Source: Methylotuvimicrobium buryatense 5G (GTDB lineage: Bacteria; Pseudomonadota; Gammaproteobacteria; Methylococcales; Methylomonadaceae). Taken from it: DNA of 64,000 nt. The first letter of the stretch is position 1; each line of letters starts with the position of its first letter. The stretch is taken from positions 4,069,924 through 4,133,923 of the forward strand of contig NZ_KB455575.1 of assembly GCF_000341735.1 (NCBI RefSeq), read 5' to 3'. The notes under the pieces are model-generated. The model did no database searches. It had not been told where the DNA came from and saw only the letters and a program-made list of their open reading frames with translations. The translations under genes were made by a program, and so were the position numbers. This document shows positions 10,120-60,427 of this stretch, in pieces.

Positions 10120-10277
10120 TTTACCCATCGTAGATAAAAATTCGGCACCGGGGCCCGTCAAAGGATGCCGTGAATACGCCCATGTAAGCTCTAGCCAGCA
10201 TCCATGCTGGCAAAGCCTTTGCCAGGCATCTCGGTGCCTCCTTAGGCACTGCCGAAATTTGAAGTGCGAAAGGTAAA
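10120..10277 (+). repeat. MITE family 1, copy 1
   Basis: This is a ~160-bp non-coding element. The left end reads TTTACCCATCGTAGAT...ATTCGGC and the right end GCCGAAATTTGAAGTGCGAAAGGTA. The ends are ~27-bp imperfect inverted repeats (consensus TATACC-NN-TCG...TTCGGC). The interior carries the GCCGTGAATACGCCCATGTA module and an AGCCAGCATCCATGCTGGC hairpin. It lies between the divergent exchanger and alanine dehydrogenase genes and may carry their promoters. Confidence 0.8.
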
Positions 10278-10331
10278 ACCGAATTATATTCCAATTCGAA
10301 TGATAGCTTGCCACTAAATCAAGGGGGCGCA

Positions 10332-11438
10332 ATGAGAATAGGTGTTCCGAAAGAAATTAAGGATCAAGAAGGAAGGGTGGGACTGACTCCGGCGGCCGCC
10401 GGAATATTGGTCGAGCGAGGCCACGAAGTGTTAGTTGAAATCGGTGCCGGATTAGATTCGGGGTTTACCGATAATCATTACAAGCAGCTTGGTGTTAATT
10501 TGGTTTCAGCATCGGAGGCTTGGCAGGCGGACCTAGTGGTTAAGGTCAAGGAGCCGTTGCCTGCCGAGTATCAGTATTTGAAGCAACAAAAGATCTTTAC
10601 TTTTTTGCATTTGGCCGGTGTCGATCCGGCTTTGACCGATGCCTTGCTGACTAATGGCACCACCGCGATTGCCTACGAACTGGTTGAAGATGAGCAAGGC
10701 CGGTTGCCGATTCTAGTGCCGATGAGTGCGATAGCCGGCAATGTCGCGGTCTTGATGGGCGCGTATTACCTGGCTAAGTTCAATGGCGGCAAAGGCGTTC
10801 AATTAGGCCGCATTGGCAAGAACAGGCATGGTAATGTGTTGGTCGTCGGCGATGGGGTGGTTGGCATGCATGCCGCTCGCGTGGCATCGGCAATGGGAGC
10901 CGAGGTTTATGTCGCCGGTATCGACAAATCGCACATGGATTGGTTGAGAAGAAACGAGTTGCCGGAAGTCAATTTCGTATTATCGACGCCGGAAAATATA
11001 AGCCGCATTGTTACCGAGGCAGACCTTATTATTGGGGCCGTGTTGTGCAGGGGAGACAAAGCGCCTAAAGTCATCACCGAACAAATGATAGCGACGATGA
11101 TGCCCGGCTCGGTCGTTGTCGACGTCAGTATCGACCAAGGCGGTTGCATCGAAACTTCGCGGCCGACATCGCATACCGAGCCCGTTTACAGGACGCATGG
11201 CGTGATTCATTATTGCGTTAGCAATATGCCCGGCGCCTACCCTCGAACCTCGACACTGGCGCTCAATGAAGCGACTTTGCCTTTTGTTCTAAAGCTGGCC
11301 GAAGCAGATAAAGAAGGGCTTGAGCATCTTGACAGTGGATTAAAGAAAGCAGTCATGACTTATCACGGACAGTTGACCAATCATGCTGCAGCTGCAGCGC
11401 TTGACAAATTAAAGCATTATCGGGCTTTGGTTGATTAG
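10332..11438 (+). CDS. ald: Alanine dehydrogenase
   Basis: The NAD-dependent enzyme interconverts L-alanine with pyruvate plus ammonium in the cytoplasm and can serve nitrogen assimilation or alanine use. The start at 10332 gives MRIGVPKEIKDQEGRVGLTP, the usual family N-terminus, with GGGGGC 3 nt upstream; an in-frame ATG at 10308 is rejected. The 368 residues match family length. The catalytic Lys region is VVKVKEPLPAEY, His lies in FTFLHLAGVD, the nucleotide-binding stretch is NVLVVGDGVVGMHAARVA, and NMPGAYPRTSTLAL is near the C-terminus. No regulator is adjacent. Confidence 0.96.
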   Translation: MRIGVPKEIKDQEGRVGLTPAAAGILVERGHEVLVEIGAGLDSGFTDNHYKQLGVNLVSASEAWQADLVVKVKEPLPAEYQYLKQQKIFTFLHLAGVDPALTDALLTNGTTAIAYELVEDEQGRLPILVPMSAIAGNVAVLMGAYYLAKFNGGKGVQLGRIGKNRHGNVLVVGDGVVGMHAARVASAMGAEVYVAGIDKSHMDWLRRNELPEVNFVLSTPENISRIVTEADLIIGAVLCRGDKAPKVITEQMIATMMPGSVVVDVSIDQGGCIETSRPTSHTEPVYRTHGVIHYCVSNMPGAYPRTSTLALNEATLPFVLKLAEADKEGLEHLDSGLKKAVMTYHGQLTNHAAAAALDKLKHYRALVD

Positions 11439-11450
11439 CGTGGGAAAAAT

Positions 11451-11712
11451 CAGCAATTCCCATTTTGAGCAGTTTCGCCGATTTTAGGGTGTGGGGTATG
11501 CCTGTCGAGGAACGCCGTAAACCCATCCATGGGGGCTTGGCGGCAGCTCGAACGCCAAGGATGGCCTGAATGCAGATTTTGCATTACGTCAAGGATGGCG
11601 TGTAGTAGGGCAATGCAGGAGCAATTGCCGAGGAGCAAAAATCTGCCCTGCTGCCGACATCCTCGCCAAGCATACCCCACACCCTTTTTGATCTCCAAAT
11701 TGGGAATTGCTG
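11451..11712. repeat. MITE family 2, copy 1, with 9-bp target duplication
   Basis: The element begins CAGCAATTCCCATTTTGAG and ends AAATTGGGAATTGCTG, giving terminal inverted repeats of ~18 bp. It is flanked on both sides by GGGAAAAAT (11442-11450 and 11713-11721), a perfect 9-bp direct repeat that records its insertion. The interior holds GTGTGGGGTATGC, the ATGGGGGCTTGGCGGCAG module, the GAATGCAGATTTTGCATTACG module and CTGCCGACATCCTCGC. No transposase is inside. Confidence 0.9.
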
Positions 11713-11781
11713 GGGAAAAATAGTTCGGATTTCGATAGTTGGTTTTTTTGATAGTCCTTTAACGAGAAGTTTTTCCAGAGG

Positions 11782-12042
11782 TTAACGCTGCTGCCGCCAA
11801 CGGTAATACACTTTCCCGTCATCGCATTGCCAACTCAAGCGTTGACTCCCGCTGTCGTTGATAAACGGTTGGCAATCGTGGTCGATTTTAAATTGTGCCC
11901 ATTCGCCGTCGTCGATATTGGAACTGATGTAAGCACCGATCAACTTAAAAATGACAATACCGAATAACAGAACAATGATGGTTGTTGCAAGGTTATGTCG
12001 TAATAACAATATTATTTTTGCGGCTTTATGGAATAAGTACAT
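11782..12042 (-). CDS. Small membrane-anchored protein, function unknown
   Basis: 86 residues: a short basic N-terminus, one hydrophobic segment (residues ~17-40, NLATTIIVLLFGIVIFKLIG), then a domain with two Cys (DHDCQPF and SWQCDDGKVYY) and several Trp. The spacing suggests a periplasmic domain with one disulfide, anchored by the N-terminal helix. The GEWAQFKIDHDC-type stretch looks like a recurring small-protein pattern, but I cannot name a family. It stands between two non-coding repeats. Confidence 0.6.
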   Translation of the reverse strand: MYLFHKAAKIILLLRHNLATTIIVLLFGIVIFKLIGAYISSNIDDGEWAQFKIDHDCQPFINDSGSQRLSWQCDDGKVYYRWRQQR

Positions 12043-12075
12043 GGCAGCCTTCCTGTTCGGTTATTGAATATGATT

Positions 12076-12271
12076 ATCCTAAGAAGAGCAGTTGGCATGT
12101 GTTGTAGACCGTTCGTGCTGAGCCAAGTCGAAGCATGAACGGTCTACAACACTTTCACCGGCTTGGTGAAGCATCAAACTACCCTCACCCTTCGACAAGG
12201 CTCTCTTGAGCGCAGACGAAGGGCTCAGAGCGAACGGGTAGTTTGAGTCTCTTAGCTGCTCTTTTTAGGAT
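12076..12271. repeat. Palindromic repeat family 5, copy 1
   Basis: The ends are inverted: ATCCTAAGAAGAGCAGTTGG on the left, and the right end read on the other strand is ATCCTAAAAAGAGCAGCTAAG-like. Inside are two long hairpins: GTTGTAGACCGTTCG paired with GAACGGTCTACAAC, and CAAACTACCC paired with GGGTAGTTTG. The loops contain the widespread GTTCGTGCTGAGCC and CCCTTCGACAAGGCTC motifs. It sits just downstream of the SPFH-like gene. Confidence 0.8.
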
Positions 12272-12312
12272 TATTGTTTGTTCATCGATGCCTATTTGAG
12301 TTTTGTGTTGCT

Positions 12313-13680
12313 TTATTCGGGCTCCGAATTCAACGGCAGTTCCCGAGGAGCTTGGTCGGTGGATTGCTTGGCTTTTCTCGCGGCCTGTATCATTTCGTTG
12401 CGCCGTTTCTCGAGTACCAGTAGCTCGATATCCCTGCGTAAATATTCGGAAGTTTCCTGAGTGGCTTCATAGCGTTTTTTCTGCTCTTCGATCTGCATCG
12501 CCAGTTCCATTTCCTTCAGGCGGCTTTCGTGTTGCAGCCTTTCCGCATGCAACTTTTCCTGCAATTTCTGAGCTTCTGATTGTTTTTGCGCAGCTAAAGC
12601 CCGTTCCGCTTCGGATTCGATTTGTTTTAAGCGCTGTTCCTGTTTGAGCTTTTCTTGTTGCATGCGTTCTTTCGCGGCATTCCATTGAGCTTGTTGTTCT
12701 TCGAACAGTTTGAGTTCGGCTGCGAGCTCTTTTTCTTTCAGTAACTGTTGATGCCTCAACTTTTCTTCTTGCAGTCGTTGCTCGTTTTCAAGTTGTTTAG
12801 CCAGTTGTTGGCGTTGCAATTCTCGTTGCGTTTCCTGCTCGAGTTCTTGCAGACGGGTTTGATGCCGGACGCGCTCCATGTACAGGCGTTCTTCCAGGTT
12901 GAATTGCTCGGTTATTTGTCGCTCTTGCTCCTTTAGTAAGCGCAAATTGGATTCTGCCTCAAGTGCTTGTTCTTTGATTTTTAATTCCGTTTCCCGGTTT
13001 CTTTTTTCGATAAGCAGGCGTTCTTGTTCTTCTTGTTGGCGCAGGTTTTCCCTATTTTGACGTTCCTTGAATTCGAAGTTTTTCTTTTGGATTTTTAAAT
13101 AAATATCTTCACGAGCAAAACCATTGTTCAGGTTTTGCGATTGCGCAACATCGGCAAAAGACGGTTGTATCGAGCATAACGCACGACACTGGATATGTTG
13201 AGTGATTAGTGTTTCGTTGATTTGCGATTGAATTTGCTTTTCGATCGGCGCTAAACCGGATTCTATCCATTCGCCATTGTCGAGCTTTTTAATTTCCTGG
13301 TCGATGACATCGCGAACCAGGCTTTCATAAGCTTTTTTGATATGTCGGTTGATCTCGGGCAAGGTCTCAAGATGTGCCATCGCATAGTGAATCGAGGCTT
13401 GAAAATGAATCGTCAGATTGATCTCAAGTGAGCAAAAACCGCCGTAGAGTTCGGCACGACAGATCATCAGCCAGTCTTCGATCGGTAGATGATAAATACG
13501 ATGGTAAAAACGCGGAGTAAATGTTGTGGGACGTGGAAAGGCCTTCCGATAAGGACCTAGTTTTGCGACGACTAAACGTCGGCTGCCGTCGAAGCCCGGG
13601 TCCCAAGTTTCATCTTGGTCGTTCGCTTCGCTGGCGATATCGGCTAGCCAGAGGTCCAGAGGCGATTTAGTGCTGTTCAT
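12313..13680 (-). CDS. SPFH/flotillin-like coiled-coil protein
   Basis: 455 residues without a membrane segment. The N-terminal ~175 residues form a globular part whose second half (EINLTIHFQASIHYAMAHLE, then a helix-rich stretch ending QINETLITQHIQCRALCSIQ) resembles the strand-helix pattern of an SPFH/band-7 domain; this is an inference from pattern, not a clear match. Residues ~190-440 are a long Glu/Gln/Arg-rich coiled coil. The start ATG (13680) overlaps the upstream membrane-protein gene by 14 bp, implying coupled expression. I infer a scaffold assembled on a membrane partner. Function is unknown. Confidence 0.6.
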   Translation of the reverse strand: MNSTKSPLDLWLADIASEANDQDETWDPGFDGSRRLVVAKLGPYRKAFPRPTTFTPRFYHRIYHLPIEDWLMICRAELYGGFCSLEINLTIHFQASIHYAMAHLETLPEINRHIKKAYESLVRDVIDQEIKKLDNGEWIESGLAPIEKQIQSQINETLITQHIQCRALCSIQPSFADVAQSQNLNNGFAREDIYLKIQKKNFEFKERQNRENLRQQEEQERLLIEKRNRETELKIKEQALEAESNLRLLKEQERQITEQFNLEERLYMERVRHQTRLQELEQETQRELQRQQLAKQLENEQRLQEEKLRHQQLLKEKELAAELKLFEEQQAQWNAAKERMQQEKLKQEQRLKQIESEAERALAAQKQSEAQKLQEKLHAERLQHESRLKEMELAMQIEEQKKRYEATQETSEYLRRDIELLVLEKRRNEMIQAARKAKQSTDQAPRELPLNSEPE

Positions 13681-14953
13681 GGGTAGCGGGTTCGGTATTC
13701 ATCGTTACAGGTTCTGCGCGTCCGGATTGCTCCTTGATTTTTTGTAGTTTATCGCCAAGCTTTTCGGCAATTAACGGATAAAGCGTCGGCGCGAATTCCA
13801 CAGTACGGTCATCGACTTTACGCAAAAAGCCCCGGCTAAGCAACAGGCCGACCGCAAACATTCTCGGCCAGTCAATATAGCGTTTGGCTTTTTCGATTTC
13901 GGTTTTTTCGATAATCATTTCCAGGGCATCGTTTTCGTTGATGCGAAATTGCGTGAATTGTCTAAGGCACTCGAAAACCAACTCTTCCTCTTGTTCAGTT
14001 AGTGGGCCGGGAGCGGTGAATTCCAGGCGGTAGGAGAGCAGTACGGTAAAAAAATCGACCATGCCCGCGCACACTAAAGCAAAGGTCGAAAAGCCCGTCC
14101 ACATTGCAAATGACGGTTTGATGCCTTGGATATATTGCGAGTAAGGCATCAATACCGGTGCCGCGGGTAAATGGGTGTTGAATTTGGCGACTTGTCGATT
14201 GAATTGCAATTGAACGGTCTGCAAACCGCTCGATATCTGTTGATATATTTCTCGAATAGCTTCGGAATCCTGGTCAAGTTGGTTTAGATTGGCTTGTAGT
14301 GCGCCGATTTGGGCGTCGAGAAGTGCAAGTTGTTCTTCAAGTCCTGCCAATTCAGATTTTTTGTTTTGATAAAGCTCGTTATAGTGCCGCCATATTCGGC
14401 CTTCGCCGATTTGGTTTCTTAACGATGGAGGGATTTCAGGATGCGTGCCGAAATAAGCTTGAGTGACTTGTTGGTTCAACTGTTCCACTTCAAGCCGCTC
14501 TTTCGCCAGCAATTCCCCTTTGATGGCGATAATGTTGCTTAAATAATCCTCGACTTTATTGCGGACCTCGTTGAGGCGTTGGATATGAATCGTGTCTTGC
14601 TCGGAGATTTCATAAAATTTGAAATAAGAAAACGACACCGATGCGCCCAATGCAATCAACAGCGAGGCAAGCACGCTGAAATAACGCAATCGATTGGCAC
14701 GCCAATGAATCCCTGCGATTTCGAATGAGCAAATTACGATGATCGATTGAATCGCGACCGTGATGATCAGCGCGATCCAGGGTGTGATGAAATGCGACAT
14801 GCCGTAATATGTCGTAAACCCGGAAGCCAAACTGAGCGCGAGAACGATGGGAATGGTCCATATTCGCATCAGACTCACGAACATGGTTTGTATGATGTTG
14901 ATGAGACGTCCTAGGCCGCCGCTTTTCATTTTTATTATTATTCGGTTGTCCAT
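13667..14953 (-). CDS. Multi-pass membrane protein with long coiled-coil loop
   Basis: 428 residues. Three hydrophobic segments lie near the N-terminus (~28-48, ~55-77, ~88-112), then a ~165-residue helical, coiled-coil region (~115-280), then a fourth segment (~287-312). The C-terminal ~110 residues (EEELVFECLRQF through KYR-less RFLRKV-type strands) look like a small helix-turn-strand domain, perhaps winged-helix-like. The architecture resembles DUF4407-type proteins but I cannot assign it firmly. The gene overlaps the SPFH-like gene by 14 bp and is its likely partner. Alternative start: ATG 14929. Confidence 0.6.
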   Translation of the reverse strand: MDNRIIIKMKSGGLGRLINIIQTMFVSLMRIWTIPIVLALSLASGFTTYYGMSHFITPWIALIITVAIQSIIVICSFEIAGIHWRANRLRYFSVLASLLIALGASVSFSYFKFYEISEQDTIHIQRLNEVRNKVEDYLSNIIAIKGELLAKERLEVEQLNQQVTQAYFGTHPEIPPSLRNQIGEGRIWRHYNELYQNKKSELAGLEEQLALLDAQIGALQANLNQLDQDSEAIREIYQQISSGLQTVQLQFNRQVAKFNTHLPAAPVLMPYSQYIQGIKPSFAMWTGFSTFALVCAGMVDFFTVLLSYRLEFTAPGPLTEQEEELVFECLRQFTQFRINENDALEMIIEKTEIEKAKRYIDWPRMFAVGLLLSRGFLRKVDDRTVEFAPTLYPLIAEKLGDKLQKIKEQSGRAEPVTMNTEPATHEQH

Positions 14954-14987
14954 CGTCTGACTTTATGTTGTTATTCGAGTAAGCGTA

Positions 14988-15175
14988 ATCCTAAAAAATC
15001 AGCTGGAGCGCTTGGAATCCGTTCGTGCTGAGTCCTTCGGACTGCGCTCAGGAGAGCCTTGTCGAAGTATGAGCGAATCCAAGCGCCACCCATTGGGTGA
15101 GCATTCTAAATCCCGCCCACCCTTCGACTAGGCTCAGGGCGAACGGGATTTAGAATGCTCAACTGATTTTTTAGC
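14988..15175. repeat. Palindromic repeat family 5, copy 2
   Basis: The outer ends pair as CTAAAAAATCAGCTG and AACTGATTTTTTAG. The inner hairpins are GCTTGGAATCCGTTCG with GAGCGAATCCAAGC, and GAGCATTCTAAATCCCG with its exact complement. The loops keep the GTGCTGAG and CCCTTCGACTAGGCTCAG motifs seen in copy 1, while the arm sequences differ. It lies immediately upstream of the coiled-coil membrane protein gene. Confidence 0.8.
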
Positions 15176-15326
15176 GTTATTGCGGAAATTAGCAAGATTA
15201 AAAAAATTCTGCTAATAGTATCACATTGAATTTAAATAGTTTCTATTGAAAACAAATCAAGCAGTTGTCTTTATTCCGGCTATTGCGTGAGGGTTTTAAC
15301 CGTATATTTGAGATTGAGTGTCAATC

Positions 15327-16271
15327 ATGAAAATAGCCATAATCGGAGCCGGCCATGTCGGTTCGTCGTTAGCGTATGCGCTGGTGTTGAAGGGGTTGGG
15401 CAATTATTTGTTGTTGGTCAATCGTGATGCGACCAAAGCGTTGGGAAATGCATTAGATTTACAGCATACACTGGCTTTTTGCGAACGACCGATGCAAATC
15501 GAGGGCGGCCCGCTTGAAGAGGCGGTGGGTTGCGATATCGTCGCGATCACCGCTTCGACGCCGATGGCAAAAGGCATGACTTCTCGTATGGAATTAGGCA
15601 AAGCGAATGTCGAGTTATTCAAATCGATTATCCCGATGCTGGCCGAAAATAATCCTGAAGCTGTTTTTATTATCATCACCAATCCGGTCGATGTGATGAC
15701 CTGCTGTGCTACGCGGCTTTCGGGATTGCCGTCGTCACAAATCGTCGGAATCGGCACGCTGGTCGACTCGGCTCGATTCAGAACCTTATTGTCCAAGGCC
15801 GAGCAGATTCATCCCGACGATTTAAGAGCCTATATTCTTGGCGAACACGGACCGAATCAGTTTCCGGTATTCAGCCATGCTTCGGCTGGCGGCGAGCTGA
15901 TAACCGATAGTCCGAGGCATAGAGAGATTTTTGAAGAGGTCAACAAGGCCGGTTTCGAGGTCTATCGATTGAAAGGTTATACCAATTTTGCGATTGCTTC
16001 AGCCGCTTGCGAAGTCATCAGAACCATAGTTCACGACGAACATCGAACGATGCCGCTCAGTACTTGTTTCGATGACTGGCAGGGGATCAAAGACAATTGT
16101 TTCAGCATTCCGGTCGTACTAGGCCGTTCCGGTATTATCCGGTATTTGCAGCCCGACCTAAACAGTCTGGAGATCGAGGCGCTGGAGCAATCGGCCAGAA
16201 CGGTCCGAGCCAATATCGATAGTTTATTGCTTGGGGTAGGTGAAAGAGGAAAGGTGAAAGGTGAAAGATGA
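15327..16271 (+). CDS. L-lactate/malate dehydrogenase family protein
   Basis: An NAD-dependent 2-hydroxyacid dehydrogenase of the LDH/MDH family, cytoplasmic. It has [14 protein letters not shown] (dinucleotide fold), [21 protein letters not shown] (substrate-binding Arg), and [12 protein letters not shown] with the catalytic His. The mobile-loop segment [12 protein letters not shown] has neither the MDH-type Arg nor the LDH-type Gln at the discriminating position and one extra residue, so substrate is uncertain. ATG 15327 is chosen over the GTG at 15318. The last ~12 residues ([12 protein letters not shown]) are encoded by the start of a 7-bp tandem repeat, so the C-terminus may vary between strains. 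Confidence 0.85.
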
Positions 16272-16403
16272 AAGGTGAAAGGTGAAAGGTGAAAGGTGAA
16301 AGGTGAAAGGGGAAAGGTGAAAGGGGAAAGGGGAAAGGGGAAAGAGGAAAGAGGAAAGAGGAAAGAGGAAAGAGGAAAGAGGAAAGAGGAAAGAGGAAAG
16401 AGG
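16238..16403. repeat. 7-bp tandem repeat (GGTGAAA / GGGGAAA / GAGGAAA)
   Basis: About 24 consecutive heptamers, drifting from GGTGAAA units at the left to GGGGAAA and then GAGGAAA at the right. The array begins inside the last codons of the dehydrogenase gene and includes its stop. The unit is not a multiple of three, so unit gain or loss near the left end would alter the protein tail. A related array lies at 23202-23281. Confidence 0.95.
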
Positions 16404-16414
16404 AATGGAGTCTT

Positions 16415-16450
16415 GTGGGAGCGATCCCCAGATCGCGATTTCGAAGCCGG
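16415..16450. repeat. Short dispersed repeat (TGTGGGAGCGATCC type), copy B
   Basis: GTGGGAGCGATCCCCAGATC followed by GCGATTTCGAAGCC is nearly identical to 7531-7568. It lies between the heptamer array and the flippase gene; no coding sequence is visible in 16404-16568. Confidence 0.6.
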
Positions 16451-16568
16451 TAAGCTTGGATGATAATAAAGGGTATCGAAGTCACATTGGTCAAGGTTCC
16501 TCGTTACCGCCGCTCCAGCGTGGGAATGCATACCAAAGCTGAAAGATGAAGGGAGAAACGTGGCCGAC

Positions 16569-18050: not shown

Positions 18051-18077
18051 GACAAAGGGTCCGGTTAACAGAGTAGC

Positions 18078-18180
18078 TATAGCTATCGTAGATCAATATT
18101 CGGCGTCGGGGTGTCCGTTAAAGGGCATGGTGCATATGTCCATGTAGGCAAAGCCTTTGCCGAATACCCCGGCGCCTAAG
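18078..18180 (+). repeat. MITE family 1, right-truncated copy
   Basis: The left end TATAGCTATCGTAGATCAAT and ATTCGGCG match the family terminus. The middle (TGTCCATGTAGGCAAAGCC and CCCCGGCGCCTAAG) is present, but the right terminal repeat is absent, so this is a decayed copy. The gene-free stretch 18051-18461 also holds a family-3 end fragment and otherwise shows nothing. Confidence 0.75.
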
Positions 18181-18321
18181 TCTGTTGAAAAAAGCCATTT
18201 TAGCTAATTTCTGTATTACCGCTTTTTAATCTCAAAATAACTTGGAAATTGTTGATGGTCATAGGCTATAAAGCGCTAGGTGTAGGGTGAACATCGCGCA
18301 CCAAGGTCGGGCATCCGTCGT

Positions 18322-18351
18322 GTTAGGCGGTTTTTCAATCAAAAGGGAGTA
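18322..18351. repeat. Solo end of MITE family 3
   Basis: TTAGGCGGTTTTTCAATC followed by AAAAGGGAGTA is nearly identical to the right end of the full element at 48510-48685. No matching opposite end is seen nearby, so this is a remnant. Confidence 0.65.
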
Positions 18352-18461
18352 GATCGTTTTTCAACCACCGAGAACACAAGGCATGAATATCTATACCTTT
18401 GTGAACTCTGCGGTTTTATTAAGCGTTAAATGAAAAATTCAAAGAGTTGAGTGATAAGAGA

Positions 18462-18769: not shown

Positions 18770-18930
18770 TATACCTTTCGTACTTCAAAATTCGGCAGGT
18801 GACTAAGGAGGCACCGGGGTGCTCGACAAAGGCTTTGCCAGCATGGAGCTGGCATAGAGCCTACATGGACGTATTCACGGCGTCCTTTGACGGGCACCCC
18901 GGCGCCGAATTTTGATCTGCGATGAGTATA
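18770..18930 (-). repeat. MITE family 1, copy 3
   Basis: Complete 161-bp element in the minus orientation, from TATACCTTTCGTACTTCAAA to GATGAGTATA. Inside are GGCAGGTGACTAAGGAGGC, the CCAGCATGGAGCTGG hairpin and ACGTATTCACGGCGTCC. It lies upstream of the small exported protein gene. Confidence 0.9.
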
Positions 18931-21697: not shown

Positions 21698-21793
21698 TCG
21701 ACGCTTACAGGGAGGTAAGCGGTAGACTGCGTCTGGAACCGGCAGTCGACGCTTACAGGGAGGTAAGCGGTAGACTGCGTCTGGAACCGGCAG
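21698..21793 (+). repeat. 48-bp perfect tandem duplication in the moaA leader
   Basis: Two identical 48-bp units (21698-21745, 21746-21793). Each unit contains two hairpins: CGCTTAC-AGGGAG-GTAAGCG and GACTGC-GTCTGGAACCG-GCAGTC. The second hairpin is completed at the unit junction and by the GTCGA that follows. It ends 75 bp before moaA. Confidence 0.95.
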
Positions 21794-22876: not shown

Positions 22877-23201
22877 AAGGTGAAAGATGACAAGCGCGCC
22901 AAGATTTTTCGCGAAAGCTGAAATGGGGTCCGTCCGATTTCAGCAGCGAAAAATTACTTGGCGATTATTGCCTTCGGCGGCCCCGATTCGCCCTGCGTCC
23001 GTGCCACTACGCCACATCATCGTAAACTCGATGCGGCTCCGTAGCACTCCCACAAATGGCTTTACGCCGTGTCGCGATGCCTTGTATTTTGCCTCCGCCT
23101 GCGCTATTCGCGCAGACTCCGGCAAAACACCCGGCGCTACGGCTATCGGGGACTAAAAATCTTCACTTCGCTGGCGCTCCGTTTCCAAGATTTTCAGCGA
23201 A
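22877..23201. other. Gene-free segment bounded by imperfect direct repeats
   Basis: CCAAGATTTTTCGCGAAAG (22899-22917) and CCAAGATTTTCAGCGAAGG (23185-23203) bound ~290 bp without a credible coding frame. Its codon-like composition differs from neighbours (GC-rich, CGGCGGCCCCGATTCGCC). It may be a decayed insertion; I cannot name it. Confidence 0.35.
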
Positions 23202-23281
23202 GGTGAAAGATGAAAGATGAAAGATGAAAGATGAAAGATGAAAGATGAAAGATGAAAGATGAAAGATGAAAGATGAAAGAT
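23202..23281. repeat. 7-bp tandem repeat (GATGAAA)
   Basis: About eleven heptamers, mostly GATGAAA, starting with one GGTGAAA. The same unit family appears at 16238-16403 and as two units directly at the moaA stop (22872-22889). Confidence 0.95.
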
Positions 23282-23379
23282 GGGTTCTTATGTTCTCGCC
23301 AAATGTATCCCACAGCGCCAAAAATTGTCGTTCATTGAGGCGAAGGTGACGAGCCAATAGACGCCAACATAAAGAAAAA

Positions 23380-23480
23380 ATGCGTCATTCCGCCAGGGAT
23401 TGGCGGAATCCAGTGCCATGGATGGCAATGCGAAGCTTCACATTTATGTAATCTGGATATCTGCAATCTATTCCGACATG
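23380..23480. repeat. ATTCCGCCAGGGATTGGCGGAAT-type intergenic palindrome
   Basis: CATTCCGCCAGGGATTGGCG continues into GAATCCAGTGCCATGGATGG and later ATTCCGACATGACGAATA. This wording is typical of dispersed intergenic repeats in many proteobacteria. Only this copy is in the window, so the repeat status rests on general knowledge. Nothing else is seen in 23282-23631. Confidence 0.45.
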
Positions 23481-23631
23481 ACGAATAATGCCGCAAAAGC
23501 ACTACAGAATAGGCGCTAATTTGGCGCTTATGGGTGTTCCCCCACCAGTGAATTAGTCTGAGCCGTCTGTTTTAATTGGCAAAGGGCCAATTTTTATTAA
23601 CCCGCAACTTTATTTCCCCCACCTAAAAATT

Positions 23632-24915: not shown

Positions 24916-25076
24916 TATACCCTTTGCTTGTCAAATTTCGGTGCCGGGGTGCCCGTCAAAGGACGCCGTAAATACGACCATGTAGGCTCTATGATAGCAT
25001 CCATGCTATCAAAGCCTTTGCGGAGCACCCCGGCGCCTCCTGAGGCAATGCCGAAATTTGAAGTGCGAAAGGTATA
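24916..25076 (+). repeat. MITE family 1, copy 4
   Basis: Complete 161-bp copy from TATACCCTTTGCTTGTCAAA to GTGCGAAAGGTATA. It fills nearly the whole gap between the convergent helicase and oadB stop codons, so its internal hairpins (TGATAGCATCCATGCTATCA) lie in both 3' untranslated regions and might act as a terminator. Confidence 0.92.
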
Positions 25077-26327: not shown

Positions 26328-26516
26328 CCTAGGATTTGGTCGTAAATAACTTCCCTATTTTCGGAGGGTTCGGTAACTCGATTGGCAGGTGTCGGCGGCA
26401 GGGAAAGCCGCCGTCAAGCCTACACGGACGTATTTGCGGCGTCCTGTCAAGCGAGTTACCGAACCCTCAACAACGCTCATAGTTCCTGGACATTATTTAT
26501 CACGAAATCCCTAGGG
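26328..26516. repeat. MITE family 4, copy 1 (between oadA and oadB)
   Basis: Outer ends: CCTAGGATTTGGTCGTAAAT on the left and, on the other strand, CCCTAGGGATTTCGTGATAA on the right. Inner arms: GGTTCGGTAACTCG and CGAGTTACCGAACC next to TGGCAGG/CCTGTCA. The middle has the ACACGGACGTATTTGCGGCG module shared with family 1. Confidence 0.85.
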
Positions 26517-28478: not shown

Positions 28479-28766
28479 AGCTTGGGTTCTCCGTGGACCT
28501 TATGGGAGGTCAAATCATTAAAAGTTGATGCGACTTTAAGTTTTAACCAGGGCGTTCAATTAACTTCGGTTGCGAATAAAAAAGGCGCTTGGCTGCGAGT
28601 ATGGTTAGTATCCGGAGTCCTACGGCAGATGCAAATGGGCTGAAATTAAAGTCGTTTGGCGTGCATTATATTGAAAAAACAAGGCAACATCATCTTGAAT
28701 TGCTTTGCGGGAAAAATGAGCAGGCCTTGTTTATGAGAATATTCGAGGCTTAGGCGTTGCGGTTTT

Positions 28767-28990
28767 ACTCCCTTTTGATCGAAAAACCGTCTAAGAATAA
28801 AAGGTATGGGATGTGTCTAACGAGGACCGTCGTGAACCCATTCATGGGGGCTTGACGGCAGCGATCGAACGCCAAGGATGGCGTGAATGCAGATTTTGCA
28901 TGGAGCAAAAATCTGCCCTGTTGCCGACATCCTCGCTAGCCACACCCCATACCTTCATAAAGCTAGCCATTTTTTGAGTATAAAGGGAGT
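28767..28990. repeat. MITE family 3, copy 1
   Basis: The element runs from ACTCCCTTTTGATCG to AGTATAAAGGGAGT, preceded by T and followed by A, so the insertion site reads as TA/TA. The inside has GTCGTGAACCCATTCATGGG, GCTTGACGGCAGCG, GAATGCAGATTTTGCAT and TTGCCGACATCCTCGCTAGC. Outside it, the 28479-29425 gap shows no coding sequence; no oadG-like frame is present. Confidence 0.88.
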
Positions 28991-29040
28991 ATGTCGTTTT
29001 CGCATCGGTTTCATAGCATAGGTTTATTTCATTATTATAG

Positions 29041-30663: not shown

Positions 30664-30823
30664 TATACCCGTCGTAGATCAAAATTTGGCGCCTGGTTGT
30701 CCGCTAAAGGACGCCGTGAATACGTCCATGTAGTCTCTATGCCAGCTCCATGCTGGCAAAGCCTTTATTGGACACCCAGGCGCCTCCTCGGGCACTGCCG
30801 AAATTTGAAGTGCGAAAGGTATA
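30664..30823 (+). repeat. MITE family 1, copy 5
   Basis: Complete copy from TATACCCGTCGTAGATCAAA to GTGCGAAAGGTATA, 30 bp after the porin stop. It has the CCAGCTCCATGCTGG hairpin; the GCC-rich pairs around it carry mutations (CGCCTGGTTGTCC / GGACACCCAGGCG), and both arms changed together. Confidence 0.92.
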
Positions 30824-30872
30824 AATACGTTCAAGGAGCTTTCGATTCTTTTTCTAGTGTTAAGAGAGGTGG

Positions 30873-31006
30873 CTCCCTTATGATCGAAAAACCATCTAAG
30901 AATAAAAGGCATGGGATGTGTCTATCGAGGTCCGTGTTGCCGACATCCTCGCTAGCCACACACCATATCTTCATAAAGTTAGCTATTTTTTGAGTATAAA
31001 GGCAGT
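30873..31006. repeat. MITE family 3, copy 2 (short)
   Basis: The left end CTCCCTTATGATCG and AAAAACCATCTAAGAATAAA match copy 1. The right end is TTGAGTATAAAGGCAG. The middle lost ~85 bp, so GTCTATCGAGGTCCG joins directly to TGTTGCCGACATCCTCGC. Confidence 0.85.
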
Positions 31007-31113
31007 AGTAAGGTCCTTTATTTTTAGTCTAAATAGGGGGATAAAAGCGGATTTTGATCCAACAAAATCCGCCAACCACTTCAGTGCCCAAGCTATCCAG
31101 TGAGTTTTTTTGT

Positions 31114-31250
31114 TATACCCATCGCAGATCAAAATTCGGAACCAGGGGGCCGTCAAAGGGCGCCGTAAATACGTCCATTTAGGCAAAGCCTTTGCCGAGC
31201 ACCCTGGTGCCTCCTTAAGCATCGCCGAAATTTGAAGTGTGAAAGGTATA
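31114..31250 (+). repeat. MITE family 1, copy 6 (short)
   Basis: The 137-bp form runs from TATACCCATCGCAGATCAAA to GTGTGAAAGGTATA and lacks the central CCAGCATGG hairpin. It ends 7 bp before the lipoprotein stop codon. Confidence 0.92.
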
Positions 31251-31257
31251 ACTCCCC

Positions 31258-31773: not shown

Positions 31774-31917
31774 AAAGATTTGGTCGTAAATAACTTCCCC
31801 ATTTTAAGGGGCGGTTGCTCAATTGGCAGGTGTCGGCGGCTCAGCGTCCTGTCAAACGAGTCACTGAATATCCACACAGCCTACTACTTATAGAAGTTAT
31901 TTTGTGAGCATTCCTTA
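31774..31917. repeat. MITE family 4, copy 2 (short)
   Basis: The left end AAGATTTGGTCGTAAATAAC matches copy 1; the right end AGAAGTTATTTTGTGAGCAT plus TCCTT matches the copy at 48685-48966. Inner arms GCGGTTGCTCAATTGGCAGG and CCTGTCAAACGAGTCACTGA are degenerate. The interior is reduced to ~20 bp. Confidence 0.75.
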
Positions 31918-43781: not shown

Positions 43782-44092
43782 CAGCAATTCCCAGTTTGAG
43801 CAGTTTCGCCGATTTTAGGGTGTGGGGTATGCCTGTCGAGGAACGCCGTAAACCCATCCATGGGGGCTTGGCGGCAGCTAAGCGCCAAGGATGGTGTGAA
43901 TGCAGATTTTGCATTACGCCAAGGATGGCGTGTAGTAGGGCAATGCAGGACAGAAAAATGCTCCTGCATTTTCTGCATTCATTACATCCATGTAACTCAG
44001 CAATTGCCGAGGAGCAAAAATCTGCCCCTGCTGCCGACATCCTCGCCAAGCATACCCCACACCCTTTTTGATTTCCAAATTGGGAATTGCTG
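43782..44092. repeat. MITE family 2, copy 2 (with extra module)
   Basis: The ends CAGCAATTCCCAGTTTGAG and CAAATTGGGAATTGCTG match copy 1, and the interior is nearly identical except for a ~59-bp inserted stretch around ACAGAAAAATGCTCCTGCAT. There is no matching flanking duplication; GTTTTTCCAGCAA at the left junction recurs at 44143-44155, suggesting a rearranged flank. Apart from this, 43514-44164 holds nothing that I recognise. Confidence 0.9.
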
Positions 44093-48509: not shown

Positions 48510-48685
48510 TACTCCCTTTATACTCAAAAAATGGCTAACTTTATGAAGGTGTGGGGTGTGGCTAGCGAGGATGTCGGCAGCAGGGATCGCTGCCGTCAAG
48601 CCCCCATGGAAGGGTTCACGGCGGTCCTCGATAGACACATCCCATACCTTTTATTCTTAGACGGTTTTTCAATCAAAAGGGAGTA
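48510..48685. repeat. MITE family 3, copy 3
   Basis: The ends TACTCCCTTTATACTC and CAATCAAAAGGGAGTA are inverted and bounded by TA. Inside: GCTAGCGAGGATGTCGGCAG, CAGGGATCGCTGCCG, CCCCCATGGAAGGG and CGGCGGTCCTCGATAGAC. It directly abuts the family-4 element to its right. Confidence 0.9.
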
Positions 48686-48966
48686 GGAATATGCACAAAA
48701 TAACTTCTACAAGCATTAAGCATTGTGGCGGTTCGGTGACTCGCTTGACAGGACGCCGTGAATACGCCCATGTAGGCTTGACGGCGGAATCTGATTGCCA
48801 TGGATGGCATGAATGCAGATTTTGCATTACGCCATGGATGGCGTGTAGTAGAGCAATGCAGGAGCAATTGCCGAGGAGCAAAAATCTGCCCTGCCGCCGT
48901 CACCTGTCAATCGAGCCACCGAACCCCCTTTCCACATTTGTCGAAGTTATTTCATGCTCGTTCCTT
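48685..48966. repeat. MITE family 4, copy 3 (overlapping the ampD 3' end)
   Basis: Outer ends: AGGAATATGCACAAAATAAC on the left and, read on the other strand, AAGGAACGAGCATGAAATAA on the right. Inner arms: GGTTCGGTGACTCGCTTG and CAATCGAGCCACCGAACC. The interior holds the CCGTGAATACGCCCATGTAG module of family 1 and the GAATGCAGATTTTGCATTAC module of family 2. The right ~66 bp are also the last codons of ampD. Confidence 0.88.
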
Positions 48967-50365: not shown

Positions 50366-50366
50366 C

Positions 50367-54705: not shown

Positions 54706-54788
54706 GCCTGCGTCAGGGCTGGATTAATTCAAGTGCTGGACTGTCGGTAGCCGCACAGTGCCGACTGGCTGGCATCGCACGATCGACA

Positions 54789-55610: not shown

Positions 55611-56021
55611 ATTTCCTTCGGAACGTGTGGATAAGCTGATAGAAAACTGCTTAGGCAGTTTACCACGAGCTTACCCACACTAATTCACCCTTTGACCACA
55701 TTCCGCCGCAGCAAGCATGATGGAATATCAAAATGCCTGCGGCGCAATAATAACAATTTAATAAAATGAAAAAGGAAATGACTTAATTTTTGAGTCATTG
55801 GTTTAGACAATAGAGAAGAATTGGGGCAGCGCCAGTCAGCTGTAACAAAGACAACACCCTCTTAAACTCGGTGATAAATTGTCTGGACAATGGGGTCCAC
55901 TATAGAATGAGAGCTTATTGACAGTAGATGAGAGAAAGAATATCAATTTGTTAGGCAAACACAATTTATGTAGCTCGACCCAAAATTGACACTCGTCAAT
56001 AAACATTGAATATCAGAGCCG

Positions 56022-59000
56022 ATGACCGACGCGCGATGTAAAATCCAAACAATTTTCTTTGATTTAGGCGATCAACCTGCCGTGTTGCGATACGGACTGG
56101 CGGTACTGGTCGTCGTCGCCACGACATTCGCGACCATTTATTTTCCAGTGATAGGTGATCGCGCTGCATTTTTGTTATTTGCTTTCGGGATTAATCTGGT
56201 CTCTTTCTGGTTAGGGAAGAACCCCGGCTTTCTTGCGGCGGCATTATCCTTGATCGCAGTCAATGCACTGATATTGTTTCCGGCCGAGACCGAATTCGAC
56301 GACCTATTGATATTAAACGCAGCCTTTTGCTTTGTCTCAGTGGTTATGGTCGCGACAACCAGCTTTCATAGGCGAATCACCCATGCGTTATGGGAAAGTC
56401 GACAGGATTTGGATCGTGCGCAAACGGTCGGGCAAATCGGTAGCTGGCGGCTGGATATCAAGCGTGACGAATTAATTTGGTCCGACGAGAATCACCGTAT
56501 TTTCGGTATTCCGATAGGCACGCCGAAGACCTATCAGACTTTTCTAGCCATCGTGCATCCGGAAGACCGGGACTATGTCGACCGGATGTGGCGAGCGGGT
56601 CTGCGCGGCGAGCCCTATGATATCGAGCACCGTTTGTTGGTAGATGGCGCAGTGAAATGGGTTCGAGAAAAGGCTTGGCTGGAATACGATAAAAAGGGCA
56701 ACTTGCTAGGCGGGTTCGGGACCACGCAAGATATTACCGATCACAAACGCAACGAATTGGAGCTGCGGGACAGTCGGCAGCGCTATGCTGACATAGTCGA
56801 GTCGGCTAGCGATGCGATTATTACTATCGACGTCGATCAACGTATTTTGCTATTCAACTCAGCAGCGGAAAAAATGTTCGGTTGCAGTACGGATGAAGCC
56901 ATCGGCGGGACTATCGAACGTTTTATGCCCGAGCGGTTCCGCGCTGCACATGGCTCATCTATTCGTGGATTCGATGATGCAGGAGTTGCTCATCGAATAA
57001 AAAATGGACTGTCGTCCATTAGGGGAATACGAGCCGATGGCGAAGAGTTCCCGATCGAGGCGTCCATTTCCAAGTGCGAGATAAACGGCGAGAAAACCTT
57101 TACCGTGATCATGCGCGACGTGACCGACCGCACGAATGCGGAATTGGCCATGAAGGAGCAGATAAGATTACAGGACCAATTAACCAAGGTTGCCGCAACA
57201 GTGCCTGGGGTCATTTGTTCGTTCCGATTACGCCCTGACGGCACGGCATGCATGCCTTATGCCAGTCCGCTGTTCGAATCGGTATATGGGTTCAGCCCCG
57301 AGCTTGTGGTCGAGGATTTTAGCCCTGTTTTCGCTCGCACCCATCCCGACGATCTCGTTCATATCCATGCAACCATTGCCGAATCGGCTCGTACCCTCCA
57401 GGCTTGGCGAGATGCGTTCCGCTACAATCATCCGACCAAAGGCGAGATTTGGATCGAAGGTCATTCGATGCCGCGGAGCGAGACGGATGGCGGCATTCTC
57501 TGGCATGGTTATATCCAAGACATTACCGACCGTAAGCTGGCCGAATTGACATTACGCGACCGGGAAAACGAATTACGTTTGATCATGGACGCGACGCCCG
57601 CGCTGATCTCTTATTTGGATACCGAGTTTAAGTATTTGCGAGTCAATGCGACCTATGAAAAATGGTTCGGTATCACAGCGGATCGGATCCTTGGTCGAAA
57701 AGCACCGGAAATCATCGGTCAAGAAGCCTGGCGTACCGTTAAACCCTATTTCGAACGTGCCCTTGCAGGGGAGCAGGTAAATTTTGATCAACAAATACCC
57801 TACGGGCATGGAGAGCCTCGCTGGGTCCAGGCCACTTATATTCCTAATACGGATACGACCGGAAAGATCAAGGGTGTCGTCGTGCATGTCGTCGATGTTA
57901 CGGATAGAAAGCTGACCGAGAAAAAAATTGATTTACTAAACCGGAGCTTGGAGCGCAGAGTAGAAGAGATGCAAGTCATTTTCAATACTGCACCGATCGG
58001 ACTGTGCATTGCCGATGGCTCGGACGTCTACGATATTCGCGGTAATCCGGCGCTTGAGGTGATGCTCGGCATACCGATGAGGGTCGGTCTTTCCAACCGT
58101 AGTGAAGTTATGAACGCCATTCGTGTCATGCAAAACGGGCTCGAGCTGGCAAATGAGGATTTACCGATGCGGCGCGCCGTTCGCGGAGAAGTAGTCAAAA
58201 ACCAAGTCATCGATATTATTCGTCCCGACAGCCAACAGATAACAATACTCGGCAATGCTTCGCCCTTATTTAACGAACAAGGCGAGCCGCGTGGTGCCGT
58301 GGGGGCTTTTCTAGATATCACGGCGCTCAAACAGGCCGAGCAAGAGCTGCGCAACTCCGAAGCTCGACTCGCCCTGGTCGTCGAAGAAGTCAATGCCGGA
58401 TATTGGGACTGGGATTTGATTACCCGTCAGTTATTTTTATCGCCCGAATTAAAACGGCAAATCGGCCTTGACGATAGCGAATCACTTAACCGGAGCGAGG
58501 ATTGGGAAAGCCGCTTGCATTCGGACGATCGAGCATATGTCATGGCGACGATAGAAAACTTCATTGCCGATCACAAGCCGAATTTTGAATTGGAGTTTCG
58601 CTTGCGCCACAAAGACGGGTCTTACCGTTGGATTCATTCACGCGGTGTTTTGTTGAGCGATCAAAATAATCGAGCCTACCGTATCCTGGGCATCAATTTA
58701 GACATTACCGACTACATGAAGCAAAAGAAGCTCAACGAGCGGCGCGACAAAATGGAACAGTCGTCCCGATTATATGTTGCGGTCCAGACGGCCGCTGCGT
58801 TTGCCCACGAATTGAACCAGCCGCTGTCGGCTATCTCCTCTTATGCCGATGTGGCGCTGCATTTGTGTCAAACGGATAATCCTAATCCGCAAAAACTTTG
58901 TCAAGTCATGGAAAAATGTTCACAGCAAGCGCAACGCGCCGGCGAAGTGATACGGCAATTAGTGAGCCTATTGCAAAAAGGGGAAACCGTTAGCGAACCG

Positions 59001-59459
59001 GTAGATATCAATGCCGCGATCCATGAAGTGTTCGATTTAATGAAAACCGATGGGCTCTCTGATGAATTTAAAATTGAGCTGGATCTTGCCGTTGACTTGC
59101 CTCCGGTTAAGGCCAATGCTCTGCAGATACAGAAGGTATTGATCAATCTGCTACGTAATGGCCTGGAGTCTATGTTGGAACAGAGAGAAAAAGCCGAAGC
59201 GATCATCGTGACAACGCAACGCGATGAGGCCGATCCAACCATGATTCGGGTGACAGTGCGCGATAGCGGAATAGGTGTCGAGAATCCTGCTGCGCTTAGA
59301 AATATCTTTCAACCTTTTCATAGCACTAAACCGGCCGGTTTAGGAATGGGTCTTGCGATAAGCCGTTCTTTGATTGCGGCCCACGGCGGAAAAATGTGGG
59401 CCGAGCCAAATGCGGGCAACGGCCTTAGCATCCACTTTACCTTGCCATGCGCGATATAA
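56022..59459 (+). CDS. Multi-PAS hybrid-type sensor histidine kinase (FixL-like)
   Basis: 1145 residues. Four hydrophobic segments (~18-120) near the N-terminus resemble DUF4118-type anchors. About six PAS/PAC units follow (~135-900; each ends with a DITDRK-like element). The HisKA domain has FAHELNQPLSAISSYADVAL with phospho-acceptor His929; the ATPase domain has N-box LINLLRNGLESM, GIGVENP and GLGMGLAISRSLIAAHGG. It has no receiver domain. The stop overlaps the FixJ-like regulator by 13 bp, so the two form a pair. No heme-binding PAS is clearly evident. The signal is unknown. Confidence 0.93.
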   Translation: MTDARCKIQTIFFDLGDQPAVLRYGLAVLVVVATTFATIYFPVIGDRAAFLLFAFGINLVSFWLGKNPGFLAAALSLIAVNALILFPAETEFDDLLILNAAFCFVSVVMVATTSFHRRITHALWESRQDLDRAQTVGQIGSWRLDIKRDELIWSDENHRIFGIPIGTPKTYQTFLAIVHPEDRDYVDRMWRAGLRGEPYDIEHRLLVDGAVKWVREKAWLEYDKKGNLLGGFGTTQDITDHKRNELELRDSRQRYADIVESASDAIITIDVDQRILLFNSAAEKMFGCSTDEAIGGTIERFMPERFRAAHGSSIRGFDDAGVAHRIKNGLSSIRGIRADGEEFPIEASISKCEINGEKTFTVIMRDVTDRTNAELAMKEQIRLQDQLTKVAATVPGVICSFRLRPDGTACMPYASPLFESVYGFSPELVVEDFSPVFARTHPDDLVHIHATIAESARTLQAWRDAFRYNHPTKGEIWIEGHSMPRSETDGGILWHGYIQDITDRKLAELTLRDRENELRLIMDATPALISYLDTEFKYLRVNATYEKWFGITADRILGRKAPEIIGQEAWRTVKPYFERALAGEQVNFDQQIPYGHGEPRWVQATYIPNTDTTGKIKGVVVHVVDVTDRKLTEKKIDLLNRSLERRVEEMQVIFNTAPIGLCIADGSDVYDIRGNPALEVMLGIPMRVGLSNRSEVMNAIRVMQNGLELANEDLPMRRAVRGEVVKNQVIDIIRPDSQQITILGNASPLFNEQGEPRGAVGAFLDITALKQAEQELRNSEARLALVVEEVNAGYWDWDLITRQLFLSPELKRQIGLDDSESLNRSEDWESRLHSDDRAYVMATIENFIADHKPNFELEFRLRHKDGSYRWIHSRGVLLSDQNNRAYRILGINLDITDYMKQKKLNERRDKMEQSSRLYVAVQTAAAFAHELNQPLSAISSYADVALHLCQTDNPNPQKLCQVMEKCSQQAQRAGEVIRQLVSLLQKGETVSEPVDINAAIHEVFDLMKTDGLSDEFKIELDLAVDLPPVKANALQIQKVLINLLRNGLESMLEQREKAEAIIVTTQRDEADPTMIRVTVRDSGIGVENPAALRNIFQPFHSTKPAGLGMGLAISRSLIAAHGGKMWAEPNAGNGLSIHFTLPCAI

Positions 59460-60100
59460 GCACTCAAACCTTCTACGTCTTCATCGTCGATGACGATGAT
59501 GCGGTGCGTGACGGCCTCGGGCAGGTTATGGAAGTTGCCGGCTTTAATTATCAAGCTTTCGAGAGTGCCGAGCATTTTCTGCAAGCTTATTGTCCGGGTA
59601 AGAGAGGATGCTTGGTTCTCGATCTCAACATGCCGGATATGACCGGCGACGAGTTGCAAACCGAATTGACCCGCCGGGATATTCATTTGCCTATCATTTT
59701 CCTGACCGGTTATGGAGACATACCCACGACCGTTCGCGTGATCAAAGCCGGAGCGGTTGATTTTCTGACGAAGCCCGTTTCCAGTAAGTTATTGATCGAA
59801 CGGATTCGGGGAGTCCTAGAGCAAGAAGCCCGGAGGTACGAAGACTCGCTACTGGCAGAGCAAGCGCTCTGTAGGCGTTTAAACGGTCTTACCACCCGCG
59901 AATCGGAAGTGATGTCGCTGGTGGTGGCGGGCCATGCCAATAAGGAAATCGCAAGACAGCTCGGCATCAGCCACCGTACCGTCGAGGTGCACCGTGCTCG
60001 AGTCATGGAAAAAACGGGTGCAACCAGCCTTCTGGAATTAGCCCGTTTGTGTGAAACTTGTCGACTGCCGCCGGAGGCATCTTCTTCTGAATCGGAATAA
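59447..60100 (+). CDS. FixJ/NarL-type response regulator
   Basis: 217 residues. The receiver domain has VFIVDDDDAVRDGLGQV and phospho-acceptor Asp in LVLDLNMPDMTGDEL, then LTGYGDIPTTVRVIKAG and DFLTKPVSS (conserved Lys). The LuxR-type DNA-binding domain contains LTTRESEVMSLVVAGHANKE and ISHRTVEVHRARVMEKTGA. Coupled to the kinase by a 13-bp overlap. The pair resembles FixLJ systems that switch respiratory or oxygen-linked genes, but no target is visible here. Confidence 0.95.
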   Translation: MRDISTQTFYVFIVDDDDAVRDGLGQVMEVAGFNYQAFESAEHFLQAYCPGKRGCLVLDLNMPDMTGDELQTELTRRDIHLPIIFLTGYGDIPTTVRVIKAGAVDFLTKPVSSKLLIERIRGVLEQEARRYEDSLLAEQALCRRLNGLTTRESEVMSLVVAGHANKEIARQLGISHRTVEVHRARVMEKTGATSLLELARLCETCRLPPEASSSESE

Positions 60101-60217
60101 ATTGATATCGGTATAAGTTTTAACCGAGCCCTCCTTATCAACAATCTGTTCGATATTGAAAAAAGGGACGTTCCTGCTCATTCCTAAGATGTGTAACTGT
60201 TTATGTTCGCGTTAACC

Positions 60218-60427
60218 TATACCCATCGCACTTCAAATTTCGGCATTGACGCATGGAGGTGCCGGGGTGCTAGGTCGATTTTTGCTCCTGCAAAATCGAC
60301 ATTCACGCCATCCATGGCGCTCGCAAAGGCTTTGCCAGCATGGAGCTGGCATAGAGCCTACACGGACGTATTTACGGTGTCCTTTGACGGGCACCCCGAG
60401 GCCGAATTTTCATCTACGATGAGTATA
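60218..60427 (-). repeat. MITE family 1, copy 7 (with extra ~50-bp module)
   Basis: Minus orientation from TATACCCATCGCACTTCAAA to TCATCTACGATGAGTATA. It carries an inserted GTCGATTTTTGCTCCTGCAA and CATTCACGCCATCCATGGCG block, which is the module known from families 2 and 4, here within a family-1 element. Otherwise the 60101-60553 gap shows nothing. Confidence 0.9.

Follow-up and report, generated by a model that had tools for sequence, protein, structure and literature searches.

The small dispersed repeats found in a 64,000-nucleotide stretch of the genome of Methylotuvimicrobium buryatense 5G (contig NZ_KB455575.1, positions 4,069,924 to 4,133,923 of the forward strand; hereafter the window) are, by their layout, miniature inverted-repeat transposable elements (MITEs), in which one core and several inner modules occur behind at least six types of outer ends, designated E1, E2, E3, E4a, E4b and E5. 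We propose, with a probability of about 0.7, that these MITEs are moved through their ends by several DDE transposases, and that their interiors are swapped separately and in place, via template switching at hairpins or ectopic gene conversion. A first-pass annotation of the window had described four families with different ends and interchangeable interiors. The copies it listed are present within a few bases and the ends do differ, although its fourth family combines three end types (E4a, E4b and E5) behind one arm; this, and the exchange in place, go beyond that annotation.

The elements of the window are listed below, with G429, G430, G431 and G432 denoting four relatives whose syntenic stretches were compared.

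10120..10277 (+): E1 element (TATACC-type ends, A1 arms, core); core match; empty site in G430 and G432
11451..11712 (+): E2 element (CAGCAATTCCC ends, A23 arms, core variant Cg, inner modules); core match; empty site in G432
18078..18190 (+): truncated E1 element (left end, arm, short core)
18323..18352 (strand not assigned): E3 end fragment (repeat family D13)
18770..18930 (-): E1 element carrying its core on the minus strand; core match; no insertion at this site in G431 and G432, an insertion with the same interior in G429
24916..25076 (+): E1 element; core match; other interiors in G429 and G431; empty in G430
26329..26512 (-): E4b element (GGATTTGGTCGTAAATAACTTCC end, A45 arms), core on the minus strand; core match
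28766..28991 (+): E3 element (TACTCCC ends, A23 arms, core Cg and a short inner module); core match; empty in G430 and G432
30664..30824 (+): E1 element; core match
30872..31007 (strand not assigned): E3 element, left end decayed, no core match
31114..31251 (+): E1 element, short core; core match; empty site in G432
31774..31914 (strand not assigned): mixed element, E4b left end and E4a right end
43782..44092 (+): E2 element with a nest of inner hairpins; core match
48510..48686 (-): E3 element, core on the minus strand; core match
48687..48957 (+): E4a element (GGAATATGCACAAAATAACTTC / GAAGTTATTTCATGC ends, A45 arms, core Ct, inner modules); core match
60218..60427 (-): E1 element, extra CCATGGATGG and TCGATTTTGC module beside the core; core match

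Intact copies in the window are short (138-311 nt) and non-coding, and inverted outer ends of 17-29 nt were identified in 11 of these 16 parts (none being reported for 18078, 18323, 30872, 31774 and 60218). The copy at 18078, previously placed in family 1, retains the E1 left end, arm and short core yet is truncated, while 31774, previously placed in family 4, does have ends of that family, albeit of two types. DNA folding of the E2 element at 43782..44092 and of positions 48727-48928, inside the E4a element, returned z values of -9.85 and -7.50 against shuffles, which is expected because both are palindromic.

One core and common modules behind different ends

The analyzed sample comprises the window and 40 stretches, each 20 kb long and taken at even spacing from this genome, amounting to 864 kb or ~17% of 5.07 Mb. 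A BLAST search with ten window elements as queries identified 210 element loci, fragments included, covering 33.8 kb (3.9%) of the sample. The core model R1, a covariance model built from an alignment of 50 sequences, none of which is titled as a methanotroph, and for which E-values are rough, matches 158 places at E up to 0.01, beneath all six end types, equivalent by proportion to about 900 core copies per genome. Of 28 patterns representing ends, arms, cores and modules, 26 returned 11-99 matches in the sample, and the left and right E5 patterns (E5L and E5R) returned 8 and 9, not all of these matches being separate, as the left and right versions of an arm overlap. The same patterns returned 0-2 matches each in a single run of a first-order Markov simulation.

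The 352 detected ends were assembled into 134 convergent pairs, with same-type partners preferred and 84 ends left unpaired. Same-type ends bound 124 of the 134 paired elements, and ten are mixed. The inner arm GGTTCGGTNACTCG is common to three outer ends, i.e., E4a (GGAATATGCAC), E4b (GGATTTCGTGATAAAT) and E5 (ATGAAGGC..CCCGGCAAATGAAAG), and arms are distributed such that A1 occurs in E1, A23 in E2 and E3, and A45 in E4a, E4b and E5. The exceptions are two E4a elements and one E1 element that also contain A23, the latter at locus L042, where an E2 element is nested within an E1 element (5970-6413). Judged by the arms, at least four of the ten mixed elements appear genuine, namely L018:8559-8781 (E5/E1), L018:6778-6917 (E3/E2), L033:10082-10246 (E2/E4a) and window 31776-31914, while two or more resemble adjacent fragments; L065 (wino1) has E4b/E3 ends as read by eye.

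Behind these ends the interiors share blocks across families, as had been claimed. Among the 124 same-end elements, core variant Ct occurs in E1 (35/52), E4a (12/18), E4b (8/13) and E5 (4/5), and core variant Cg in E2 (26/27), E3 (6/9), E4a (6/18) and E1 (1/52), although the Ct and Cg patterns can cross-match. The CCATGGATGGCGTGAATG module is present in all six end types, while the GCAGATTTTGC..GCAAAAATCTGC module is found in five, not in E3, where a related form, MBi, occurs in two of nine elements. At L010 (13208-13330), the CCATGG and GCAGATTTTGC module stands in three tandem copies, the stretch running on into E2-type sequence.

Aligned modules of elements with two ends of one type were then subjected to label permutation (1000 shuffles), the resulting counts not being probabilities because the copies are not independent. 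For core Ct (n=59), the mean distance is 0.088 inside families and 0.089 across them; 415 of 1000 shuffles are as large, and 62 cross-family pairs are identical. Module MBi (n=14) likewise carries no family signal (277/1000), and module MB (n=24) a weak one (17/1000), yet with 99 identical cross-family pairs. In contrast, arms A45L (n=44) and A23L (n=57) follow family (0/1000 each).

These data bear on plain common descent, according to which an ancestral MITE possessed this core, its ends were replaced long ago and interiors are shared only through conservation. The grouping of end types by arm (E2 with E3; E4a with E4b and E5; E1 apart) is what such descent predicts, and core Cg (n=36) keeps a family signal (0/1000), as do Ct and Cg combined (n=91; 0/1000), the whole-core signal reflecting the division of the two variants among families. 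The CCATGG module (n=42; 2/1000) also counts against free exchange. The refuting condition named in the first-pass annotation, interiors that align only within a family, was put to this test; Ct speaks against it and Cg in its favor. However, the lack of family signal in Ct, the identical cross-family pairs of Ct and MB, and the orthologous sites with the same ends and different insides described below argue against this explanation, which we regard as unlikely.

Movement through the ends

Sites lacking an element were identified in the four relatives. E1_10120 and E3_28766 each have an empty site with a single TA in both G430 and G432, while E2_11451, which is flanked by the 9-bp duplication GGGAAAAAT, has a nine-base overlap at its empty site in G432. 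Empty counterparts with less exact junctions were also found for E1_18770, E1_24916 and E1_31114. As read from the flanks only, E4a and E4b elements have TTA or TAA (TWA) on both sides in most listed pairs. Judged from sequence, the ends appear to behave like those of DDE transposons, because of the empty sites with TA or 9-bp duplications and because genes of the ISAzo13 family lie between E4a-like ends. All four PF07592 genes of the genome are so placed (2-5 mismatches to the consensus), one of which scored 479 bits to the NCBIfam ISAzo13 model, and E4a is thus most likely mobilised by an ISAzo13-family enzyme. For E2, an IS4-like enzyme is proposed: a 1.6-kb element with E2 ends (L186) contains two overlapping transposase frames (a broken frame), the longer of which matches PF01609 with 29.7 bits and the IS4 model with 19.3 bits, below its cut-off. 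The transposase search per end type, as suggested by the first-pass annotation, has accordingly matched E4a and E2 to different families.

Two candidates for E1 were rejected. IS630, which targets TA, is not represented, as no PF13358 match was found in the genome, and locus L164 (1034-2635), which had been considered as an autonomous E1 element, is an IS4-like transposon inserted within an E1 MITE.

Interior differences at orthologous sites

Ten occupied orthologous comparisons, with flanks 85-100% identical, were scored by eye; pairs that were too rearranged or lacked a flank were left unscored, e.g., E3_30872 in G432, whose interior seems longer. The interiors differ in five of the ten, i.e., E1_10120 in G429, E2_11451 in G430, E1_24916 in G429 and G431, and E1_18078 in G431. 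The cleanest case is E2_11451 in G430, where both ends and the duplicated target are kept and one inner block differs.

A second example is provided by a Stenotrophomonas intergenic locus (copy B), at which 15 orthologues keep the stem GGCGGGGTGGGTCCGGTTGCGGG while the core inside it is one of three alleles, allele I being present in two, II in seven and III in six (four further partial matches were left out). On a tree built from the flanks, with the elements excluded, the alleles require six changes where the minimum is two, and 96 of 200 label shuffles are as low. The core alleles are thus unlinked to the flank tree, and well-supported sister pairs, L211/L215 and L094/L217, possess different alleles.

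The core in other bacteria

The pattern CCGTRAATACRTCCRTGTAGGCT matched at least 107 stretches, and the 80 matches listed include Stenotrophomonas, Marinobacter, Alcanivorax, Rheinheimera, Yersinia similis, Methylomonas and one metagenome-assembled genome titled Rhodobacteraceae. In a scan of 369 gammaproteobacterial genomes from 272 genera, at E up to 0.001 and with at most 12 places scored per genome, the core model matches 76 genomes and 69 genera.

The 50-sequence alignment describes a three-way junction. Constancy of the first hairpin in this alignment is by construction, because that hairpin lies within the search pattern, the outer stem and second hairpin lying outside it; in model matches of other genomes the first hairpin varies too, e.g., GGC/GCC instead of GCC/GGC. 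RNAalifold prefers for it the form GCC-gtgaa-TACATCCATGTA-GGC, with a five-base bulge. Outer stems are very different between copies, often inside one genome (the five copies of L201 have five stems), though not always, as the two copies of L198 have one stem. At L079, L113 and L125, from other gammaproteobacteria or unclassed proteobacteria, large inserts occupy the loop of the second hairpin.

Covariation, the check proposed by the first-pass annotation, was scored on a hand-written core structure and proved strong: pairing holds in 83.4% of cells (62.2% in shuffles) and both sides have changed in 290 cells (96 in shuffles), while sliding the partner by one to three columns lowers pairing to 31-40%. 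Counted by pair, however, the alignment does not exceed shuffles, of which 119 of 500 reach the observed 19 doubly changed pairs and 153 of 500 the observed 64 further pair types.

The Rfam family overlapping the core is Ysr224 (RF02770), a Yersinia small RNA (sRNA). In Yersinia similis (L093, 1814-1920) it scores 129.9 bits, above its gathering score, with the same core within, and this sRNA may, from its sequence, thus be a piece of a dispersed repeat. Window element 24916 scores 27.7 bits (24921-25018), below the gathering score of 70. MicroRNA families also match the palindromes weakly. The loops may resemble those of TwoAYGGAY RNA, for which no match so named was returned at E up to 1 in the window and eight other loci, with the presence of that model in the library unverified.

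A selected function, e.g., as a transcription terminator, RNA stabiliser or protein site, would favor MITEs carrying the core. The wide distribution of so unusual a structure, the excess of double-changed cells and the standing of the Yersinia copy as an sRNA are consistent with such a role. Palindrome-templated repair, however, gives matched double changes without selection, such that covariation by itself cannot separate the two, and the Stenotrophomonas locus tolerates three core alleles. Furthermore, the 134 paired elements comprise 63 in codirectional, 28 in convergent and 17 in divergent positions, 18 inside open reading frames and 8 unassigned, against 89, 35 and 31 kb of codirectional, convergent and divergent intergenic sequence by rough gene calls; without clear orientation bias, the terminator role was rejected. 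A selected function appears improbable as the main explanation, though the role that the first-pass annotation suggested for the shared blocks (RNA hairpin or protein site) may still apply.

RAYT transposases and SbcCD

It is very unlikely that the inner hairpins and core are sequences akin to repetitive extragenic palindromes (REPs) or their hairpin-forming doublets (REPINs), moved by REP-associated tyrosine transposases (RAYTs; Y1 type) and inserted into MITE loops. The genome does possess four Y1_Tnp genes, such genes are commoner in core-bearing genomes (61/76) than in the rest (180/293), GTAG and small hairpins occur within the core, and the second-hairpin inserts described above would fit such insertion. 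Passages of PMC3733652 also describe REP dimers in longer palindromes and, for S. maltophilia, genes of tyrosine transposases with self-complementary repeats on their flanks. However, none of 34 Y1_Tnp loci (the four own genes and 30 of 47 matches in ten core-bearing genomes) has a core match within about 1.5 kb. In addition, Y1_Tnp has no match in 15 of the 76 genomes that bear the core. Several of these 15 are incomplete; five have at least 12 core copies, and three of the five are 97-99% complete. RAYTs as main driver are therefore unsupported. One of the own RAYT loci (L158) bears an E4a-like end, three mismatches from the consensus.

Cleavage of hairpin tips by SbcCD was also considered and rejected: no SbcD above the curated cut-off was found in the genome, only a 49-bit match, the gene pair beside which is presumably YhaO/YhaN. 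As SbcD is not rarer in core-bearing genomes (13/76 against 31/293 in the rest), neither SbcCD action nor its absence explains the spread of the core.

Proposed mechanism

According to the mechanism that we propose, the outer 20-30 bp would be recognized by several different DDE transposases, and behind them would lie palindromic arms and the one shared core, a three-way junction spread across many gammaproteobacteria. New sites would be reached through the ends, while interior change would be a separate process, in which blocks of the interior are copied between elements at hairpins, by template switching during replication or by ectopic gene conversion, with both arms kept matched. We propose these routes in view of the hairpin folding of arms and core and of the many copies in which both recur. 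A one-sided exchange, followed by copying to the other arm, could equip the core with different ends on both sides. The shared core, the different ends, the target duplications and empty sites of E1, E2 and E3, the interior differences in place and the mixed-end elements are observed; we infer whether core or ends are older, how interiors are exchanged at the molecular level and how new ends are captured. The first-pass annotation had offered two alternatives, i.e., that modules move between elements of different transposases or that one core acquired several end types, and its interpretation is supported in that both partly hold: inner modules change between orthologous elements, and a widespread gammaproteobacterial core lies behind at least six end types.

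Besides the family signals noted above, several points weigh against exchange in place and movement by the ends. Point differences aside, the interior is the same in five of the ten orthologous comparisons (E1_18770, E4b_26329, E3_28766 and E1_18078 in G429; E4_31774 in G432), and the E1 sites 10120, 24916 and 18078 may reflect a second independent insertion at the same TA. The pairing procedure favored same-type ends, and several of the ten mixed pairs may be adjacent truncated elements (L028:11186, L043:17742). The region around the Stenotrophomonas core is itself repeated, with 1-35 matches each in 61 genomes, so that the replaced tract may include the stem and reach beyond the core, and transfer of the locus between Stenotrophomonas species may explain the alleles; no exchange event was directly observed. 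The E2-ended element L186 has no 9-bp duplication in its flanks, and transposases for E1, E3, E4b and E5 were not found beside PF01609 (30 of 32 matches) or PF07592 (four of four) genes.

It is also conceivable, at appreciable though clearly less than even odds, that the three-way-junction core is a second-tier selfish hairpin cassette which, having no ends of its own, copies itself into MITE loops.

Relation to known repeats

Bacterial MITEs such as NEMIS, ERIC, YPAL and Nezha are described in passages of PMC3733652 as non-coding elements of 70-300 bp with terminal inverted repeats and transposases that recognize the ends, features which the present elements share or, as regards the transposases, probably share. 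Unlike those, the latter combine at least six end types with one core and inner modules, and their interiors differ at the same site. To our knowledge, interior sharing and turnover of this sort is unusual among bacterial MITEs. The elements also resemble bacterial interspersed mosaic elements (BIMEs) and REPs or REPINs in being intergenic mosaics of small hairpins, and gene conversion was reportedly proposed in REP evolution by Higgins in 1988. They differ in that no core lies beside the examined RAYT genes, the core being carried within MITEs with TA, TWA or 9-bp duplications. REPINs are RAYT-linked doublets (passages of PMC3116915), and REP dimers inside longer palindromes of A. variabilis and H. 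neapolitanus (passages of PMC3733652) similarly present a hairpin unit nested in a longer palindrome, whereas what is nested here is a three-way junction, which 69 of the 272 sampled gammaproteobacterial genera possess. Ysr224 contains the same core, the window copies falling below its gathering score.

In the open-licence literature, neither this core nor its occurrence behind several end types was found described; 'miniature inverted-repeat' was not found together with Methylomonas, nor the longer term with Methylotuvimicrobium, and six 10-11-base core pieces, at least two per paper, returned only unrelated titles.

Other repeats in the window

The repeats at 12073-12274 and 23396-23490 have no core-model match, and thus not every small repeat of the window possesses the core. 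The former is MITE-like, with ATTATCCTAAGAAGAGCAG ends and a GTGTTGTAGACCGTTCGTGCT hairpin, and is represented by 25 BLAST pieces in the sample, with more copies in relatives. The latter, a small repeat beginning GGCGGAATCCAGTGCCATGGATGGCA, recurs at L031:9960-10044, a copy with a weak core-model match, and at L038:14452-14544, with 24 BLAST pieces in the sample. A further dispersed repeat (7595-7755 and 63364-63610) has 13 BLAST pieces, with no inverted ends reported for the 7595 copy. Heptamer arrays lie at 16210-16424 and 23173-23296, one consisting of GGTGAAA/GGGGAAA/GAGGAAA and the other of GATGAAA, and 48 bp are duplicated in perfect tandem at 21698-21793 (repeat family D20).

Implications

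For bacterial MITEs, this analysis pulls apart two processes that are usually merged, i.e., reaching a site and changing once there, and it unites a repeat previously seen piecemeal, including as a Yersinia 'sRNA'. If the proposed reading is right, small palindromic repeats can preserve an interior across several transposases, and the history of an individual copy would be poorly reflected in its interior sequence. These elements, with many copies and with orthologous sites in sequenced relatives, would then constitute a natural assay for hairpin-templated exchange. Should the core indeed be selfish, it would outlive each transposase that carries it, and would have persisted in this manner across the gammaproteobacteria.

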